Of a DNA stretch of 64,000 bases, positions 13,724 through 59,335 are shown one piece after another. The stretch lies in assembly GCA_937864365.1 (NCBI GenBank), contig CALMJT010000215.1:62001-126000 (forward strand), given 5' to 3'. The first letter of the stretch is position 1. Every line of letters begins with the position of its first letter. The translations under genes and the position numbers were made by a program. The DNA is from an uncultured Alteromonadales bacterium. Lineage in GTDB: Bacteria; Pseudomonadota; Gammaproteobacteria; Pseudomonadales; Cellvibrionaceae. The notes below the pieces were generated by a model. It ran no database searches. It had not been told where the DNA came from and saw only the letters and a program-made list of their open reading frames with translations.

Positions 13724-14141
13724 ATTATTAAAAATAAGTACTTTTATCTGGGTGGATTGTTTGGAGACTATGACCTAGCAAGCGCAAAAAAAGTTTTATG
13801 CACACAGTCATTCATGCAACTGGAATAAAAACACGAACAAGCTTTTTAAGTAGACGTGCTTTTTCTTTAACAATTACTGCAAAGCGTAAGCACCTTATCA
13901 AACCAAGAAGCACTTCGCTAATATCTGCGACAAAATTATTTTGATTTCATATACAAAATTCAATAGCAAACCCTGATTGACTTGAAGTTTCCAGCGACTT
14001 AGGTAGGTGTCGCCAACGTCAAGAACGATAAGCAATTGAAATTGTGAAGAAATTAGAAATCGCATTTTTAATTTCTGTCCTCTGATAAATCACGGAGGCG
14101 TTAATCAGCGGTTTCAATAATTTAAAATATGCACACGGGTT
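13724..14141. other. Intergenic stretch between rlpA and dacA
   Basis: About 240 bases next to dacA presumably hold its promoter, though no clear hexamers stood out. The rest is one repeat copy (13966-14115), described separately. Confidence 0.5.
13966..14115 (-). repeat. Dispersed palindromic repeat, copy 1 (full length, reverse)
   Basis: The sequence runs from a degraded end (AAACCCTGATTGACTTG, AGTTTCC) through a GCGAC...GTCGCC hairpin and the conserved core TTGAAATTGTGAAGAAATT to TTAATCAGCGGTTTC. It ends 26 bases past the rlpA stop. Ends are more diverged than in the 31-32 kb copies. Confidence 0.75.
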
Positions 14142-19366: not shown

Positions 19367-19768
19367 GTGTTTTGCGACTGTTCCGTCAAATACCTTAGCG
19401 GGACTGAATACCCAACTCTGGATGTTTTTTATATAGCCGCGCAGTTAATGCACGTTAAAGACTGATCTTACAAATTGCTCTAGTTTAGAAAACAAAACAC
19501 TCAAACTCAGCCAATATTAGCATAAAGGCCTTTCGTTCAAGCTTAGACAGTTTTTGAATATTTCTCTAAATCTAGCCACAAAAGACCGCCATCAAATGCT
19601 CAGGCAGCCTCTGACCAGAATTATTCAATAATGTTTAAAGGAAATTCTGATTCATTCAGAATTTTTTAGCGATACAAAAAAAGCGTCACCAACGTCAATC
19701 ACCATACATCATTAAGCTTTTTACACCGCGATTAACTCATCAATGCATTAATCACAGATTCCTTAATA
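19367..19768. other. Intergenic stretch between rlmH and mrdA
   Basis: This gap is unusually long for the rlmH-mrdA junction. It contains the degraded repeat copy at 19638-19763 and, closer to mrdA, about 270 bases that may hold an mrdA promoter. No gene is seen. Confidence 0.5.
19638..19763 (-). repeat. Dispersed palindromic repeat, copy 2 (degraded, reverse)
   Basis: It starts AAGGAAATTCTGA, passes through TAGCGATAC...GCGTCACCAACGTCAA and ends TTAATCACAGATTCC, lacking the central core. The end lies five bases from the rlmH stop codon. The start forms its own 9-bp hairpin (AAATTCTGA / TCAGAATTT) followed by T residues. Confidence 0.6.
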
Positions 19769-30717: not shown

Positions 30718-31080
30718 ACTCTCGCTCAAACAATTGCTGTCCTTCCTTAGTGCTGTTTTGAAGGACAAATCTCCCCAAAAGATCGAGGACTTTTAATAAA
30801 TGATTACTGCTAAGACTCCAGCGAATTAATAAGTGATTAACAACCACCTACAACGAACGCACAGGATTTAAATGGGTTGAATTAGGCGAGAACGCAGGCG
30901 GGATAAACACGCTTAAGAAACATAACTCGCGACTGCACTAATAGGATTACCAGCAAACACTGATTTTACACAACTCAACACAATATTTAGAACTGTCATC
31001 CACTCAAAAATCGTTTATTTGAGTGAGTTTTCACTCAAATATCTCCAGTGAGTTCTCAAACAGTGTGTTTTTTTATCTAT

Positions 31081-31233
31081 CGCAACCTCCGATTAACTCA
31101 CCCGCGATTTAACCAGAGGCCAGAGATTGACAATGTGATTTTCAATTTCTTCACAATTTCAATCACTTGTCGCCTTTGAAATTGGCGATACATATACGTA
31201 TCTCTGAGCACTCTAAGTTCATCAGAGTTTTCT
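31081..31233 (+). repeat. Dispersed palindromic repeat, copy 3 (full length, forward)
   Basis: It starts ACCTCCGATTAACTCA, passes through the core TTCAATTTCTTCACAATTTC and the GGCGATACATATACGTATC hairpin, and ends CTCTAAGTTCATCAGAG. Length is about 153 bp. Confidence 0.85.
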
Positions 31234-31563
31234 ATCTATTTCAGTAATTTTCAGCAACCTTGTTGAAATGATTGCAGATATTACTGAGTGCCTCGCTCTT
31301 CTATAAGGCCACTCATTCACAGCACTCTTACTAGACGCAAAATCCATACTGACAGATATATCCGAGATTTAACCTAAAGCGAAGCGTTAAACCTATAGCA
31401 AACCCCAGAGACACACAGCAGCCTCAGGATTCTTGCATCCCACATTTTCCATTGGCCTGATAGTCGCCGCGCACACTAAATGATTTTATAAATAAAGCAA
31501 ACCATACTGCGATCATCGCTCAAGTTTAAGCTAAAAAATGTGTGGTTCTAATCATGGTTGAAT

Positions 31564-31680
31564 AGGAAACCCTAATGAAGCAAAAGTTTCCATTAATCCT
31601 GAGGCAAGCCGTCAGCTTCAATAACCTTAAGCGGCCGAAACCTTGGCTAAATTGGAAATCGTATTTTCGATTTTGGTACT
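31564..31680 (-). repeat. Dispersed palindromic repeat, copy 4 (degraded, reverse)
   Basis: It begins AGGAAACCCTAATG with AAGTTTCC after it, and retains the core piece AAATTGGAAATCGTATTTTC. The far end seems lost where copy 5 begins, six bases on. Confidence 0.45.
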
Positions 31681-31685
31681 TTTAA

Positions 31686-31771
31686 AGGAAGCTCTGATTA
31701 ACTCATCCTTGATTTAATCAGAGGGACACATCCTTGTGTCGCGAGAAACTCTAGGTTAATCAGAGTTTCCT
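31686..31771 (+). repeat. Dispersed palindromic repeat, copy 5 (internal deletion, forward)
   Basis: Both ends are intact: AGGAAGCTCTGATTAACTCA at the left and CTAGGTTAATCAGAGTTTCCT at the right (last 20 bases GGTTAATCAGAGTTTCCT). The hairpin GACACATCCTTGTGTC is kept, but about 65 bp of the central core are missing. GGTACTTT occurs on both sides, just outside the ends. Confidence 0.85.
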
Positions 31772-31920
31772 AAAAATTTTTTCGGTACTTTAAAAACTTG
31801 TTGCTGCATCAATCGAAAATTCCGATAGACAAAATAGATAAGCCAAAGAGGCAAAAACGTTTAATCGAAATACTTTTGACGTTTTTAAAAGTAAATATAA
31901 ATGGAAAGCTTAAAACTTAA

Positions 31921-32073
31921 AGGAATCTCTGATTAACTCATCCCTGATTTAATCAGAGAATAGAAATTGAAAATGCGATTTCCAATTTCTTCACAATTTC
32001 AATCACTTACCGTTCTTGAAATTGGCAACACATCCATGTGTCGCTGGAAGCTCTAAGTTAATCAGAGCTTCCT
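31921..32073 (+). repeat. Dispersed palindromic repeat, copy 6 (best full-length example, forward)
   Basis: The 153-bp copy has near-perfect inverted ends: AGGAATCTCTGATTAACT at the left, and at the right the complement of AGGAAGCTCTGATTAACT. Left-arm hairpin CTCTGATTAA / TTAATCAGAG, core with GAAATTG and CAATTTC each twice, and right hairpin ACACATCCATGTGT are all intact. Confidence 0.9.
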
Positions 32074-32365
32074 AAATAATTACCTGCCTAAAACTCCCAT
32101 CAAACCCGGTAATTTAACGATCATCGGCAGGTAAATTCATCGGCAAGTAAATTAAAGGCATTTGCGCAAATACCAGTAACTTAGCCAATTTCAACACCGC
32201 TAAATTATTAAAGCTGAGAATAAATTGGAATTGCTTTTTTGGCTCCAGTAGTTGCTAGCCAGCAGTTACCTAATTCCCGCTGTACTTGCGAATGAATGAC
32301 TGCGTTACACGGAGTTTTTAAACATAACAAGGTATTGGAATTATTCACTCCACTGTGTAAGGTTT

Positions 32366-33230: not shown

Positions 33231-33994
33231 ATGAACCAATACATACTCAAACACACTCAAAACCCCGATCTTCAGTTTTTTATCGGCAAACGCAGTCGTA
33301 TTTTGGGTAAATCGGCAGAATGCGACTGGACAATCTCTTTGGGTAATTTAAGCGATAAGCAGGCGCGTTTTTGGTTGGATGAATCGTCAACGGGATTTGC
33401 CGAGTGAATGGTCAAGATGCGCTTAAATATCAGGCGTTAAAATTGGATGATCTGATTCAAGTAGGCGATCAGATCTTCCAACTTGCCGAAAGCGAAGAAA
33501 ACACTTGGTCGTTAATTGCCAGCGACAGTTGGATGAAAGGCCAACACTTCGATTTACATCCAGGCAAACAAACCCTTGGCCGCAGTGCCGAGGCAGATCT
33601 TACCTTGCCGAGCAAACACCTTTCTCGTTTGCATGCAGAGTTCAACGTTGAAAACAACACGTTAACGGTAACCGATTTAGATTCGGCCAATGGCACCTTT
33701 GTAAATGGTCAACGCGTTAGCCGCCAACCTTTACACGACGGCGATGTTGTAAAATTCGATCAGTTCAGTTTTCGCGTTTTAGGCCCTGAAGCGCAAACCA
33801 TGAAAACCCAAATTGGCGTTTTGCATAAGCCTGTAGCTTCGAAACCAACGGTGGTGAAAAAAGATCGTCCGCACGCAGGTGCTTATGTCATCCATACACC
33901 AAGATCACCAAAAGTAGAATGGACGATGATCTCTGGACTATTGGCGATCAGCAGTTGCATTGGATATCTAACCTATATCGCCTTACAACTTTGA
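33231..33994 (+). pseudogene. Double-FHA-domain membrane protein with a frameshift
   Basis: The first frame (ATG 33231 to TGA 33405) encodes 58 residues: an FHA start with IGKRSRILGKSAECDWTI and LSDKQARFWLDE. The rest of that domain continues in another frame from about 33390 (VNGQDALKYQALKLDDLIQVGDQIFQL). A complete second FHA domain follows (LGRSAEADLTLPSKHLSRLHAEF, then DLDSANGTFVNG) and a C-terminal membrane segment (ISGLLAISSCIGYLTYIAL). The two frames overlap at 33383-33404, so a one-base loss there explains the break. FHA domains bind phosphothreonine. The gene is either a recent pseudogene or contains a sequencing error. A downstream GTG at 33404 could still give a protein with FHA2 and the anchor. 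Confidence 0.7.
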
Positions 33995-40636: not shown

Positions 40637-40643
40637 AACCCTC

Positions 40644-40806
40644 GGCACCTCTGATTAACTCAACAATAATTTAATCAGAGGACAGAAATTAACACAGAAA
40701 TTAACAATGCGATTTGCAATTTCTTCATAATTTCATTCACCTACCGTTCTTGAAATTGGCGACATATCTTTATGTCGCAGCAGACTCTAGGTTAATCAGA
40801 GTTTCA
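40644..40806 (+). repeat. Dispersed palindromic repeat, copy 7 (full length, forward)
   Basis: A 163-bp copy with left hairpin CTCTGATTAA / TTAATCAGAG, a ten-base duplication (AGAAATTAAC) and the right hairpin GCGACATA...TATGTCGC. It fills nearly all the space between the convergent RDD (stop 8 bases away) and lptG genes. Confidence 0.88.
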
Positions 40807-40837
40807 TCTCTTTTTATTACGCGAGCCCATAACAATG

Positions 40838-52636: not shown

Positions 52637-53164
52637 GTGAGACACTTTCGTAATCCGCCCATTATTATCGACATAGAAGCTTCCGGCTTTGGTCCAGAAA
52701 GCTATCCCATAGAAATTGGTGTGGTACTCTCGGATGGTCTTCGCCAGGCAAAATTAATTCATCCTCACGATTCTTGGACATTTTGGTCATTCGAGGCTGA
52801 AAAAATTCACGGTATAAAGCGCGAACAACTTCTAAACCGCGGATTACCGGTTCGCGAAGCAGCGTTAGCGCTTAATCATTTGCTGAGAAACGAACGTACC
52901 TTTAGCGACTGCTGGGTAGTTGATAAACCCTGGTTGGATAAATTATTTTTGTTTGCCAAGGTTAAACAGAGTTTTTCACTGAGCCCCATTGAGGCTATTT
53001 TGCCGGACGAGCAAATACATTACTGGGACAAGGCCAAAGAGATGGTTCAGAAAAAGCTGAATGTGAAACGCCATCGCGCCAGCACCGATGCCATGGTGAT
53101 ACAACAAACTTATTTAAAATCGAAAGAGCTGGCAAGAATAAACGGCGCAAACTCGGTCGCATAA
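52637..53164 (+). CDS. DEDDh-type 3'-5' exonuclease-like protein
   Basis: The 175-residue protein starts with GTG. It has the RNase H/exonuclease motifs IIIDIEASGFGP (Asp-x-Glu of Exo I), FWSFEAEKIHGIKREQL, SDCWVVDKPWLDKLF (Exo II Asp) and HRASTDAM (Exo III His/Asp). All four acidic residues plus the His are intact, so it should be an active nuclease. It resembles DnaQ-like or oligoribonuclease-like proteins but is not a clear match to DnaQ or Orn. Converges with folA. Confidence 0.85.
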   Translation: MRHFRNPPIIIDIEASGFGPESYPIEIGVVLSDGLRQAKLIHPHDSWTFWSFEAEKIHGIKREQLLNRGLPVREAALALNHLLRNERTFSDCWVVDKPWLDKLFLFAKVKQSFSLSPIEAILPDEQIHYWDKAKEMVQKKLNVKRHRASTDAMVIQQTYLKSKELARINGANSVA

Positions 53165-53199
53165 ATAGGTTTGTTGATAATTTTTTTGAATTTAAAGAG

Positions 53200-53242
53200 A
53201 GGAAACTCTGATTAATTCTGCCTCGACTTAATCAGAGTTTCT
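53200..53242. repeat. Dispersed repeat, copy 10 (minimal hairpin), overlapping the folA 3' end
   Basis: A 14-bp perfect stem GAAACTCTGATTAA (53202-53215) / TTAATCAGAGTTTC (53228-53241) with a 12-base loop. Only the two inverted ends of the repeat remain. The folA stop codon lies inside the left arm. Confidence 0.9.
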
Positions 53243-53739
53243 AGAGTATTTTTTCTTCTCTCAAATACCGAAAACCCATACGCGTTTTTCGCATCGGGTT
53301 TAGAAGCAACTAGCAATTCACTTTGCCAATCGCCAAAGTCGAACTCGGGAATAAAAGCGTCACCATTAATTTCGGTGTCAACAATGGTTTCGAATACTCT
53401 TGTTGCCATTGGGAATGCTTCTGTAAAAAAATGCACACCGCCGATAACAAACACCTCGTCTTTTTGTTTAAAAGCGAGTTTTAAAGCTTCATCCAAAGTA
53501 GAGACCAACTCAATTCCAGATACGGCTTGATAATTTTCATCCCGAGTAATCACTATGTTTAAACGCCCAGGCAATACCGATTTGTGATCTTCATAGGTTT
53601 TGCGACCCATAATCACAGGACAACCCATGGTGTGTTTTTTAAACCAAACAAATTCTTTCGGTAAATGCCAGGGCATTTTTCCATCTTTACCAATGCAAAA
53701 ATTTTTTGCACGGGCATAAATTAAATTAACTCGAGACAT
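53212..53739 (-). CDS. folA: Dihydrofolate reductase
   Basis: The 175-residue enzyme reduces dihydrofolate to tetrahydrofolate. The sequence has MSRVNLIYARAKNFCIGKDGKMPWHLPKEFVWFK with the catalytic acid-containing region, MGRKTYE, LPGRLNIVITR and VFVIGGVHFFTEAFP. The folded part should end at GFSVFERR, as DHFR proteins usually do (E. coli ends FEILERR). The last residues, KNTL then ETLIKSRQN, are extra, and the nine from ETL on are encoded by the minimal repeat hairpin. The gene follows the GST gene by about ten bases. Confidence 0.93.
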   Translation of the reverse strand: MSRVNLIYARAKNFCIGKDGKMPWHLPKEFVWFKKHTMGCPVIMGRKTYEDHKSVLPGRLNIVITRDENYQAVSGIELVSTLDEALKLAFKQKDEVFVIGGVHFFTEAFPMATRVFETIVDTEINGDAFIPEFDFGDWQSELLVASKPDAKNAYGFSVFERRKNTLETLIKSRQN

Positions 53740-55017: not shown

Positions 55018-55507
55018 AATATTCCTGAATAGTCGTTCTTGTTAATGAATTTGGGAGGCCAGATATAACAGCCATGATTTTGATGTGGATTATGCCGTGA
55101 TCATTGAACAATGTTAAATTTTAGCGCTATTAATGACTCTTTTAGTCTTAGTGTGCTTATTAGCCCGAGCGTGTATTAACCGGCAGGTTTTAGAGTATAG
55201 GAAACTCCGGTTAATACAGAGTTTCTTGAGGCACAGGAATGTATCGCCAATTCAAGAACGGTAAGTGCTTGAAATTGTGAAGAAATTGGAAATCGTATTG
55301 TCAAGTTCTGTCTTCTGATTAAGCCATCGATGAGTTAGTCAGAGGTTCCTAAATAGTGCGATGAAATCTGTGATTTATTAAGTAGTTCTGACGATGATAA
55401 ATCCGTTCAAAGTCGTTACTATTAACGCACTGTAAAGGTGTTGGCACTCAAACCCAGTGCAATCGCCAAACTAAGGCCCGACCCTCAACGACAAGAAGGT
55501 AAAAGTT
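55018..55507. other. Intergenic region holding repeat copy 11
   Basis: The 490-base divergent gap is about one third repeat. The rest presumably carries promoters for yjdM and the helical protein. No gene is visible. Confidence 0.5.
55199..55350 (-). repeat. Dispersed palindromic repeat, copy 11 (full length, reverse)
   Basis: It runs from AGGAAACTCCGGTTAATACA through GGCACAGGAATGTATCGCC and the core TTGAAATTGTGAAGAAATTG to the other end, GAGTTAGTCAGAGGTTCCT. Length is 152 bp. Confidence 0.88.
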
Positions 55508-55957: not shown

Positions 55958-56275
55958 ACCCAGAAGACTTTATTCGGATGCTGACTCAGTCACATCAATA
56001 AAAATGACAGCAAACACATTATTTTTATAAGGAAACTCCGATTAACCTTTAGTTTCCAGCCGCAAGGATGCGCCACCAATTTCAACAACCATGAACCTCT
56101 GAAATTGGGAAGAAATCGGAAACCGATTTTCGACTTCTGCATACTGATGAAGTCATGGATGTGTTAATCAACCGTTTCCATATTGAGTATTCAGATTTAA
56201 CCACTGCTTCCGTTGTATGTGAGCGGCATTAACATCATTCAACCTTTCGGGCCAACCGTTTGTAGGAGATTTTTT
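55958..56275. other. Intergenic region holding repeat copy 12
   Basis: Almost half is a repeat copy. The last 95 bases before the globin ATG form an open frame, but the AGGAGA before 56276 decides the start there. Confidence 0.5.
56030..56179 (-). repeat. Dispersed palindromic repeat, copy 12 (full length, reverse)
   Basis: AGGAAACTCCGATTAACC then GTTTCC form the end. GCAAGGATGC and the core TGAAATTGGGAAGAAATCGG follow, ending GTGTTAATCAACCGTTTCC. About 150 bp, moderately diverged. Confidence 0.82.
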
Positions 56276-56751: not shown

Positions 56752-56812
56752 CAATGTTTAATGTCAAACATTGACGTCTGACGGAAAATAAAACAGCAAA
56801 ATAGACTAAAAA

Positions 56813-56852
56813 CACCCTTGATTAACTCATCCAAGAATTAATCAAAGCCTCC
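56813..56852. repeat. Dispersed repeat, copy 13 (minimal hairpin), abutting the polB stop
   Basis: TTGATTAACTCATCCAAGAA then TTAATCAA gives an 8-bp stem with the repeat's own ATTAACTCATCC loop sequence. It directly follows the polB TAG (56852-56854). Confidence 0.75.
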
Positions 56853-59320
56853 TAAAACAAACCAATTTGCCGATCGGTAATCCCTGAGAAACTTTTCCCT
56901 AAAAATTGCAAAAGACTGTCGGCGACGGGTAGAAGTTGTTTTTCTACGTAATGATCGTAATCGATGGTAATTTTTTGCAGCTGCGTATCGGTTTCTGAAT
57001 TGTAATTATGTAAAGGCTCGGGACCATTGACGCTAATGACATAATCAACCCAATCGCCCTTTTTTAATACTTCGCCGCGACTGGCAAGTTTTCTGGCCGC
57101 CTGCACATGCGGCGGACTCGATTTATCGTAGTCTTCAAGTTTGCGCCTAAGGCGTTTTCGATAAATCAGTTCGGAATCTTTGTTGCCGTCGTAAACATCT
57201 TTTACCAACGCTTTAATAAACGCTTCAAAAGGCTCTTCGTTAAAGATTTTTGTGTAAAGTGTTTCTTGAAAATGTCTCGCTAAAGGCGTCCAATCACTGC
57301 GTACCGATTCTAAGCCGCGAAACAACACCTCAGTGGTATCGCCTTTTTTTACAACGCCTGCATAACGTTTTTTACTACCAACATCGGCACCGCGAACGCT
57401 TGGCATAAAGAACTTGGTGAAGTGAGTTTCGAATTGAATTTCTAAATAAGACTCTAAATTAAAGTCTGATTTTATTTTCTCGGACCACAATTGATTTAAT
57501 TTTTTTGCCAAACCTTTACCAATTGTGCCGATGTCGGCTTCATCCTGTTGAGGTCCCAATAAAACAAACACCGAATCGGTGTCGCCATAGATAACGCGTA
57601 ACCCTTGTTGTTCTATCCACGCTTGCGTGGTGGTAATAATTTCGTGGCCGCGCAATGTAATTGAGCTGGAAATTCTAGGATCGTAAAACCGACAACCCGG
57701 CGAACCTAAAACACCGTAGAGAGAATTCATAATAATTTTTATGGCAAACGATAACACGCTGTCACCGTTCTTTTTGGCGATATCACGTTCTTGCCACAAC
57801 CGCGCGACTATGTCGGGCAACAACGATTTCTCTCTAGAAAATCGCGCACCATTAAATCCGGGAACAACCGCGTCTTCGCTTAGGTGTTCGTGTTCGGCAA
57901 CCCAAAACGCGTAGGGATCAATTTTGAAGGTTCGAATAATACTTGGGTACAGACTTTTAAAATCCAATAAAAGTACGTTTTCGTAAAGTCCTGGCTCAGA
58001 ATCAAGAACGTAACCACCAGGACTGAGCAAATCCACAGATAATTCAGCCAGGTTCGGTGCAATATAACCTTGACGATGCAATACCGGCAAATAAGCGTAT
58101 TCAAAGCTGGCCGCAGAACCACCAATTCGGTCGAGCGGCATTCCAGTCATGCGACTTTTTGTAGCCGCAAATTTTATGAGTTGGGTTTTCTCGAAGATAT
58201 CCCAAACCAACTCACAGTCTTTTAAATTGTATAAAGCGAGTTGTATTTTATCTTGATAAAAGAGTTCGGTAATTTCTTCGCCGCGACCGGCGCCTTTCAA
58301 TAATTTTCCTTCACCCAATAATTCACGAGCAACAAATTCTAGAGAAAAACTGGCAAAGATGTAAAAAGCCGTGCGTAACAGCTCAATTCCGTCGAGTGCA
58401 ATACGACCGTTAATCGAAATATAGCGTTTATCGTTATCTTCTGGATCAATTCGCCATGTGGGTCTCGTTCGGTTACGACCTAAACTAAAAGGAATATTTA
58501 ATTTTTTCGAAATATTCGAAAGCACCCATAAATCGAAGTTGATAAAACTCCAACCAATTAAAATGTCGGGATCGTAACTTTCTACCCAATCTAAAAATGC
58601 GATAAAACACGCCTTTTCGTCGGCGCAAAGAATTAATTCAAAATTAAGATCACGCAACTCTTTGGTGTTTACCTCGGCTATATCACCCACCATAAAGACA
58701 ATGCGCTGGTCACTGGCATATACACCAATGGAATAGAGCGTGTTTGCATCCATGGTTGTTTCAATATCCACAGACGCAACTTTAAAAGCTGGTTCGTAGA
58801 GAACGGGTTTTACGGTATTGGTTTTTACCGATCGATAATTGGGCGCTTCAGAAATCGCAACGGTGTTATTGTTTTGTGACGCCTCGGCTTGCCCAAAGCG
58901 ACATTCTTGCAGACTCTCATTTTGATAAAAAAACTCCACACCGGAGTTAATAAAACGCTCCATTAAAAAGCGTTCGGGCGGGCGAATATCGGCTTCCCAA
59001 ACCTTAATATGTCGCTGTAGAAGATTTAACGCATCGCGAGAGCGTTTATGGCTTTGAAAATATACCGCTGCGACGGGTTGGTTTTGAAAGCTTGTAAGCG
59101 GTAAAGACTTTACTCGCCAGCCACGTTGAATTCCTAATAAAGGTGCAAGACGCGGCACGTCTTCTTCGGCGATAAAAAAAACCGATTCTTGGCCTTCGAT
59201 TAACAATTGCAAAGGACCGGCATCGGTAACTAGCCAAAGTTCTAAACAGATTCCATCGTCAAGATCATGCCATTGACGCGTAAGAATAAAACCACGATCA
59301 CTGTGCCAGCTCTGATCCAC
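56852..59320 (-). CDS. polB: DNA polymerase II (B family)
   Basis: The 822-residue polymerase starts with GTG. The N-terminal 3'-5' exonuclease has VASVDIETTMD, DPDILIGWSFINFDLWVLSN and ALYNLKDCELVWDIF. The palm has LLDFKSLYPSIIRTF (motif A), KIIMNSLYGVLGSPGCRFYD (motif B) and IYGDTDSVFVLLG (motif C). It is about 40 residues longer than the E. coli protein. In E. coli polB is under SOS control. Here the gene follows DUF2333 by only 15 bases, so it is probably read from that gene's promoter, and a LexA box was not seen near its own start. Confidence 0.95.
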   Translation of the reverse strand: MDQSWHSDRGFILTRQWHDLDDGICLELWLVTDAGPLQLLIEGQESVFFIAEEDVPRLAPLLGIQRGWRVKSLPLTSFQNQPVAAVYFQSHKRSRDALNLLQRHIKVWEADIRPPERFLMERFINSGVEFFYQNESLQECRFGQAEASQNNNTVAISEAPNYRSVKTNTVKPVLYEPAFKVASVDIETTMDANTLYSIGVYASDQRIVFMVGDIAEVNTKELRDLNFELILCADEKACFIAFLDWVESYDPDILIGWSFINFDLWVLSNISKKLNIPFSLGRNRTRPTWRIDPEDNDKRYISINGRIALDGIELLRTAFYIFASFSLEFVARELLGEGKLLKGAGRGEEITELFYQDKIQLALYNLKDCELVWDIFEKTQLIKFAATKSRMTGMPLDRIGGSAASFEYAYLPVLHRQGYIAPNLAELSVDLLSPGGYVLDSEPGLYENVLLLDFKSLYPSIIRTFKIDPYAFWVAEHEHLSEDAVVPGFNGARFSREKSLLPDIVARLWQERDIAKKNGDSVLSFAIKIIMNSLYGVLGSPGCRFYDPRISSSITLRGHEIITTTQAWIEQQGLRVIYGDTDSVFVLLGPQQDEADIGTIGKGLAKKLNQLWSEKIKSDFNLESYLEIQFETHFTKFFMPSVRGADVGSKKRYAGVVKKGDTTEVLFRGLESVRSDWTPLARHFQETLYTKIFNEEPFEAFIKALVKDVYDGNKDSELIYRKRLRRKLEDYDKSSPPHVQAARKLASRGEVLKKGDWVDYVISVNGPEPLHNYNSETDTQLQKITIDYDHYVEKQLLPVADSLLQFLGKSFSGITDRQIGLF

Positions 59321-59335
59321 AAACGATTACTTCAA

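Follow-up and report, generated by a model that had tools for sequence, protein, structure and literature searches.

The dihydrofolate reductase gene folA of an uncultured Alteromonadales bacterium (draft genome G000) ends inside a short palindrome that belongs to a repeat family dispersed through the same genome. With a probability of about 0.88, a 42-bp solo-hairpin MITE derived from an IS5-family element was inserted at the 3' end of folA after the lineage had split from its congener (genome G001). The C-terminal tail of FolA would be a lineage-specific gain brought about by this insertion.

The folA stop codon lies within a palindrome

Coordinates refer to the window, i.e. the whole stretch of 64,000 nucleotides that was analysed (Table 1). 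FolA exhibits a complete DHFR_1 domain (PF00186; residues 4-159, 160 bits, profile positions 2-155 of 159) upstream of its tail. The 175-residue protein terminates in FERRKNTLETLIKSRQN; the end of the ORF reads FSVFERRKNTLETLIKSRQN*, FERR being followed in order by KNTL, ETLIKSRQN and the stop codon TAA. A preliminary description had attributed the last nine codons and the stop of folA to a hairpin with a 14-bp stem and a 12-base loop, and had placed the TAA in its left arm. The ORF translation and the inverted-repeat coordinates confirm these points. The palindrome (53202-53241) reads GAAACTCTGATTAA - 12 nt - TTAATCAGAGTTTC on the plus strand and carries the ETLIKSRQN codons; the TAA (53214-53212) is in the arm that is left in plus coordinates and 3' in the folA mRNA. 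Tail and stop are both built from the palindrome, and KNTL is outside the repeat.

The inverted repeat extends over 53202-53218 and 53225-53241 with 94% complementarity, corresponding to 14 perfect outer pairs and a 12-nt loop able to form two more. The 43-nt stretch is predicted to fold at -20.1 kcal/mol (z = -6.2 in the folA sense and -7.9 in the opposite sense), and none of 200 shuffled sequences folds as well. The mRNA hairpin of the preliminary description is upheld to the extent of a stable fold computed in both senses, but as a prediction only. An Rfam scan of the window at gathering thresholds gave 0 matches.

An AlphaFold2 model of FolA from 24 sequences (P0001 and 23 of 45 more distant loci, picked by hand) exhibits a DHFR core with a mean pLDDT of 86.8 and a last strand at residues 154-161, and residues 163-174 of the tail are modelled as a helix of lower confidence. 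Alignments of FolA to solved DHFR sequences (60 of 159) reach no further than residue 166. The solved chains of 159 aa, which we take to be E. coli DHFR, end at FolA residue 162, the second arginine of FERR. The tail is presumably translated, and any activity of the hairpin is likewise presumptive. By default, we regard the tail as a tolerated, near-neutral extension past a complete DHFR core.

Table 1. Features of the folA locus and members of the repeat family in the window.
Feature	Position	Strand	Basis
folA, dihydrofolate reductase, 175 aa	53212..53739	-	ORF list; Pfam DHFR_1
folA stop codon TAA, inside the hairpin	53212..53214	-	sequence and translation
ETLIKSRQN codons, supplied by the repeat	53215..53241	-	translation; read from 53241 down to 53215
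KNTL codons, flanking DNA between FERR and the repeat	53242..53253	-	sequence and translation
convergent exonuclease-like gene	52637..53164	+	RNase_T 20.5 bits (under the Pfam cut-off of 24); orthologue at the same place in G001
left arm GAAACTCTGATTAA, holding the folA stop	53202..53215	.	sequence, inverted-repeat search, folding
right arm TTAATCAGAGTTTC	53228..53241	.	sequence, inverted-repeat search, folding
putative solo-hairpin MITE copy (lacks one end base of the 42-bp consensus)	53201..53241	.	profile and pattern
GAGA, possible target duplication (3/4 with TAGA)	53197..53200	.	weak
TAGA, possible target duplication	53242..53245	.	weak
full-length member, TATT on both sides	13963..14119	-	profile, flanks
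diverged member	19636..19764	-	profile
full-length member, TATC on both sides	31078..31235	+	profile, flanks
body-deleted member	31683..31774	+	profile
full-length member, TAAA on both sides	31919..32075	+	profile, flanks
full-length member	40642..40807	+	profile
full-length member	55196..55353	-	profile, flanks
full-length member	56028..56182	-	profile, flanks
second solo hairpin, diverged (7 mismatches to the pattern), between convergent genes	56811..56852	.	profile and pattern

A dispersed repeat family

The hairpin had also been taken for a copy of a repeat, and genome searches bear this out: the exact arm-loop-arm core has 226 matches in the 4.72-Mb draft of G000 and a reversed control pattern has 0. 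Among 144 genomes of the bacterial family, the core further occurs in G001, the sole congener (2 matches, with differing loops), and in G039 and G046 (1 each), the remaining 140 having none. Within the window, the 13-base arm allowing up to two mismatches is matched 20 times, against 2.7 expected.

A repeat profile, built on the window's copies and refined over 442 kb of G000, corresponds to a consensus of about 152 bp, in which an A+T-rich body separates a left part, made up of GGAAnCTCTGATTAA and the hairpin, from TTAATCAGAGTTTCC on the right. Its two ends form terminal inverted repeats (GGAAnCTCTGATTAA ... TTAATCAGAGnTTCC), as in MITEs. Three size classes are seen. The largest class comprises copies of about 152 bp; in copies of about 90 bp the body has been deleted; and those of about 42 bp are the end palindrome by itself. 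At none of these MITE-like sizes do the repeats contain a transposase gene. The folA copy exhibits a single mismatch to the solo pattern (GGAANCTCTGATTAA-12-TTAATCAGAGNTTCC) in 30 fixed bases. Allowing three mismatches, the 42-bp pattern has 46 matches across G000, the folA copy included and a few of them being hairpin ends of longer copies, and 228 matches were obtained with a 30-base piece of the body; both searches gave 0 matches in G001.

All six frames of the solo palindrome contain a stop codon, a property shared by 774 of 20000 shuffled 42-mers and hence uncommon but not extraordinary. In two of the frames a stop is reached no later than the fifth codon. The third is translated as EPLINSSMI-stop from the consensus and as ETLIKSRQN-stop from the folA copy.

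Family members are clustered at 31078-32075 of the window; the single intergenic gap that holds them spans about 1.7 kb and exceeds its G001 counterpart by 847 bp. Family members are located no more than about 20 bases from an end of contigs C2, C7, C10, C12, C16 and C18 of G000, and the repeats probably break the draft assembly of this genome.

Flanking duplications and an IS5-family partner

Among 47 full copies with both ends anchored, 23 exhibit identical 4-bp flanks and 14 a match at three of four positions, compared with 4.8 and 16.7 after shuffled pairing. The commonest flank letters are T, A or T, T, A, corresponding to 4-bp duplications of a TWTA type, which mark the family as once mobile. 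Identical flanks also surround some solo copies (TAAA at C54:5467, TATA at C40:15052, TATA on C6 and AATA on C19). These were chosen by eye from the rows with at most two mismatches (4 of 10 having identical 4-bp flanks), the folA copy not being among them. Over 45 hairpins, in which solos are mixed with the hairpin ends of long copies, 8 identical flank pairs are found against 1.9 expected. At the folA copy itself, the candidate duplication GAGA/TAGA matches at three of four positions if one right-end base is assumed lost, and at none of four under strict anchoring.

The Pfam family DDE_Tnp_1 (PF01609) matches four places in G000. The match on contig C156 is above the cut-off (25.5 bits), as expected of an IS5-type DDE transposase. 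It corresponds to a transposase C-terminus at the very start of the contig; some 105 bp beyond it stands AGGTTAATCAGAGGTTCC, which is also the end of the repeats. A second transposase fragment, at the end of contig C147, has the same repeat-type end. Longer PF01609 matches on C126, C25 and C34 were considered as the autonomous partner and rejected: in the stretches retrieved around the four matches, an arm with at most one mismatch is present only at the C156 locus. A PF13586 search of G000 gave a single match, on C126, under its cut-off. Relatives of the C156 fragment (E-value up to 1e-6) occur in 24 of the 144 family genomes, G000 included; at the same threshold none was found in G001. The best ten plasmid matches of the fragment exhibit 49-56% identity, eight being annotated as IS5 family transposase and two unannotated.

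The draft of G000 carries this insertion sequence only as fragments. In G132, a complete element is 1154 bp long, with a 335-aa frame, the left end GGAACCTCTGATTAACC and the right end GGGTTAATCAGATGTTCC; both copies have TATA on each side. The repeats, the IS5-family fragments of G000 and the complete G132 element have their ends in common. Given that these ends and the 4-bp duplications match those of a complete IS5-family insertion sequence, the repeats are best described, on their sequence features, as MITEs of an IS5-family element. IS5-family insertion sequences encode a transposase, whereas the repeats encode none; the likeness lies in the inverted ends and the 4-bp flank duplication shared with the G132 element. 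The repeats would be moved by an IS5-type transposase acting in trans on GGAAnCTCTGATTAA ends. High-copy short palindromes scattered between genes also recall REP-type palindromes, moved by a REP-associated Y1 transposase, but both ends are common to 152-bp elements with 4-bp duplications and to a complete IS5-family element, and we judge a REP origin highly improbable.

Short repeats of its own, with related ends, were noted in G001: a hairpin-like element between the exonuclease-like and SAICAR synthetase genes (G001:C2:88133-88180), and a longer one (about 260 bp) that is bounded by GGGGCCTCTGATTAACCTCA and flanked by TATA (G001:C2:22919-23182).

Relatives lack the hairpin and the tail

The 54 matched non-overlapping ORFs of the window have their partners in reversed order at 76.8-137.4 kb of G001 contig C2. 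There, folA and the exonuclease-like gene are also convergent, with stops overlapping by 4 bp. The gene order is the same, and no hairpin was found between the two genes, the spacer being too diverged for a base-by-base alignment. G001 FolA ends in VYERKRG, i.e. the stop follows one residue after ERKR, and the window's FolA is longer by 11 residues, the second-largest C-terminal gain in the 54 pairs. The comparison rests on a single congener at 71% identity, and a loss of the element in G001 is formally conceivable. The repeat profile finds no family member over 200 kb of G001 (best E-value 3.8). Nine gaps bearing an element are longer in G000 by 317, 299, 847, 88, 5, 78, 85, 95 and 17 bp (median 88), whereas the median difference for the 44 other gaps is 4 bp; large excesses in G000 (481, 551 and 291 bp) also occur at some gaps in which no element was recognised. 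The largest C-terminal gain in the 54 pairs belongs to the ORF at 33383-33994 (+), with 64 residues beyond the aligned part and no recognised repeat there.

A tail of the ETLIKSRQN type is present in 0 of 29 FolAs of the bacterial family. Counted by eye, no more than 8 residues lie beyond the conserved last-strand arginine in these, compared with 14 in G000 (L026 is without that arginine). A FolA search of genome_contigs, which may leave out records of the window's own genome, returned 45 loci at 33-47% identity, none of them close. C-terminal tails were compared for 45 of 46 loci, namely L017 and 44 of the 45 more distant ones (L104 being available only as a tblastn alignment), and the same ending was found in none of the 44 more distant DHFRs. 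The alignment of L105 puts TKEIYIKASSN opposite the tail, but only beyond a gap that stands in place of the last strand. When up to four mismatches are allowed, the hairpin pattern also finds matches in L079, L102 and L105, a yield that a rough estimate puts at chance level.

With the collinear G001 having no hairpin at folA and no tail in the family FolAs, the tail of FolA is most simply read as a lineage-specific gain. The comparison with relatives lacking the hairpin, suggested in the preliminary description, gives the result anticipated there, and relatives with the same C-terminal residues but no repeat DNA were not encountered among the FolAs examined. An ancestral tail, lost in the relatives and resembling a repeat by chance or through later change, has a parallel of sorts in the equally long tail of a distant DHFR (L073; 13 residues, unrelated sequence), and long DHFR tails as such are not unique. 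Such an ancestry is disfavoured by the C-termini of the relatives, none of the 29 having the tail, and by the close fit of the hairpin to a family of hundreds of copies; we regard it as extremely improbable.

The junction itself might be an artefact in which the 3' end of folA was joined to the wrong hairpin, and draft contigs do break at family members. But a single read is longer than the 42-bp element, both flanks agree with the gene order of G001, and the loop of the folA copy differs from the consensus loop, which leaves an assembly error with a next to negligible chance.

Proposed history of the folA 3' end

We envisage the following course. After the G000 lineage had parted from G001, a 42-bp solo MITE, a minimal non-autonomous derivative of an IS5-family element, would have landed between the tail-to-tail folA and exonuclease-like genes. 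Having stops in all six frames, the palindrome would soon end any frame that enters it. The folA frame would have entered through the frame that stays open longest, gaining ETLIKSRQN and stopping at the TAA of the far arm. The same DNA would equip the folA mRNA with a stable hairpin at its 3' end and would form, in antisense, a hairpin downstream of the opposing gene.

The preliminary description had placed the insertion at or near the original stop codon. This agrees with the stop positions of the relatives, but only three of eight flank joins stop 0-2 codons after KNTL, and the other five run on for 28-68 codons. The join from which the element and one 4-bp duplication are removed runs 28 codons past KNTL, antisense to the exonuclease-like gene; the four other long-running joins extend for 29-68 codons. 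Owing to spacer indels since the insertion, the original folA stop is unrecoverable from one congener at 71% identity.

Comparison with known systems

In the literature searched, C-termini made by MITEs turn up, and nothing was found on folA or on an IS5-type solo hairpin. MITE-donated C-termini and stops are already published for Coxiella and enterobacteria, and folA adds another instance. The accessible part of a report on Coxiella burnetii describes QMITE1 and QMITE2 copies that overlap the 3' ends of genes (pntAA, mutT, nagZ, ogt and others) and give them C-terminal residues and a stop; in one strain, 33 residues of EnhC come from a QMITE (PMC5896051). As at folA, these elements donate both the C-terminus and the stop, and their shortened copies resemble REP elements; unlike the folA MITE, they have a different sequence and are longer (PMC5896051). 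TIRs and direct repeats are absent from small QMITE2 copies according to the same portion of that report, whereas some of the solo copies in G000 have retained both ends along with 4-bp duplications (PMC5896051).

In Erwinia carotovora, as far as the accessible text goes, RU-1/ERIC-type elements are fused to the ends of the amidase ECA3499 and the L-threonine dehydrogenase ECA0168 (PMC2759123). RU-1 likewise abolishes the normal stop and extends a conserved enzyme past its domain, but it is 127 bp long with an open frame, whereas the folA element is a 42-bp palindrome with stops in all frames (PMC2759123). From the available portion of a further report, RUP exhibits stops in all six frames, YPAL is co-translated with upstream genes and has been studied by comparing empty and filled sites, and the ends and duplications of both differ from those of the folA MITE family (PMC2229807). 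The accessible part of a review describes Rickettsia palindromic elements of about 150 bp lying in frame within genes, considers in-frame MITE fusions not unusual, and finds terminator roles conceivable (PMC10969869). The folA MITE would resemble the Rickettsia elements as a mobile palindrome turned into a protein part, the latter lying within genes and the folA copy forming a terminal tail with its stop (PMC10969869).

What distinguishes the folA case is the host gene, the 42-bp size and the comparison with a sister genome. With a collinear sister genome at hand, it offers a clean example in which a minimal transposon end-piece would have rewritten the C-terminus of a central metabolic enzyme. 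The IS5-type MITE family includes bare 42-bp palindromes, some with target duplications, and their all-frame stops would limit the damage to a short tail.

Elements at gene ends and a possible terminator role

Over 587 kb of G000, 134 element clusters were identified; 17 of them contain, or have within 3 nt, the stop codon of an ORF 120 aa or more in length. This count supersedes an earlier one of 9 of 110, using more DNA and a looser margin and no longer requiring overlap; both rest on ORFs of at least 120 aa rather than on gene calls, and the newer one does not include the diverged solo copy that coincides with the stop of the ORF at 56852-59326. Thirteen of the 17 have the stop at the junction, five of them as TAG, whose final G may be the first base of the element. 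For T-W-T-A sites chosen at random outside genes, the share at or near a stop codon is 4.5%, about half the rate of 13 in 134, these counts not being identically defined; we give the excess no weight. In the other four of the 17, the element supplies at least four codons: folA, one case each on C12 and C36, and a fourth at the edge of C42. The three besides folA (G000:C12:30435-32417, G000:C36:4154-4939 and G000:C42:69-470, all on the minus strand) have their last 4-6 codons and stop in a repeat copy and are candidates for tails like that of FolA.

A hairpin between convergent genes may be kept as a transcription terminator, its mobile origin being incidental and the FolA tail a by-product. 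The stem folds stably on both strands and is followed by CTCTCTTT in the folA sense and, 8 nt further on, by a T6 run in the other, but it is A+T-rich (G-C in 4 of 14 pairs) and neither T-tract is canonical. A terminator scan reported nothing at this hairpin, its loop limit of 3-8 excluding a 12-nt loop. Of 106 classifiable elements, 28 lie between convergent genes, where 13.9% of the non-coding bases are found, and 18 between divergent genes (29.4%); this skew fits terminators, but is equally expected if insertions near promoters get lost. A terminator function would be compatible with the MITE explanation and add to it; on this evidence, we consider it unlikely. A plain terminator is ruled out as the origin of the hairpin, the sequence being a member of a dispersed family, and a terminator role may still apply.

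A more far-reaching suggestion is that the 42-bp palindrome acts as a mobile cassette of six-frame stops and transcript ends, spread and retained at gene 3' ends in this lineage, and that the in-stem stop of folA would couple hairpin formation to the position of the last ribosome, so that what becomes of the 3' end of the mRNA would be tied to the translation of FolA. We consider this very unlikely.

Near folA, another inverted repeat (53102-53116 and 53162-53176) lies at the 3' end of the exonuclease-like gene, its second arm covering the gene's stop; it is followed by a T-rich stretch and is a possible separate terminator. The solo hairpin at 56811-56852 is placed exactly at the stop of the ORF at 56852-59326 (-), where the TAG consists of TA from the flank and G from the element, and the C-terminus of the encoded protein is no more than one residue away from that of its G001 partner.
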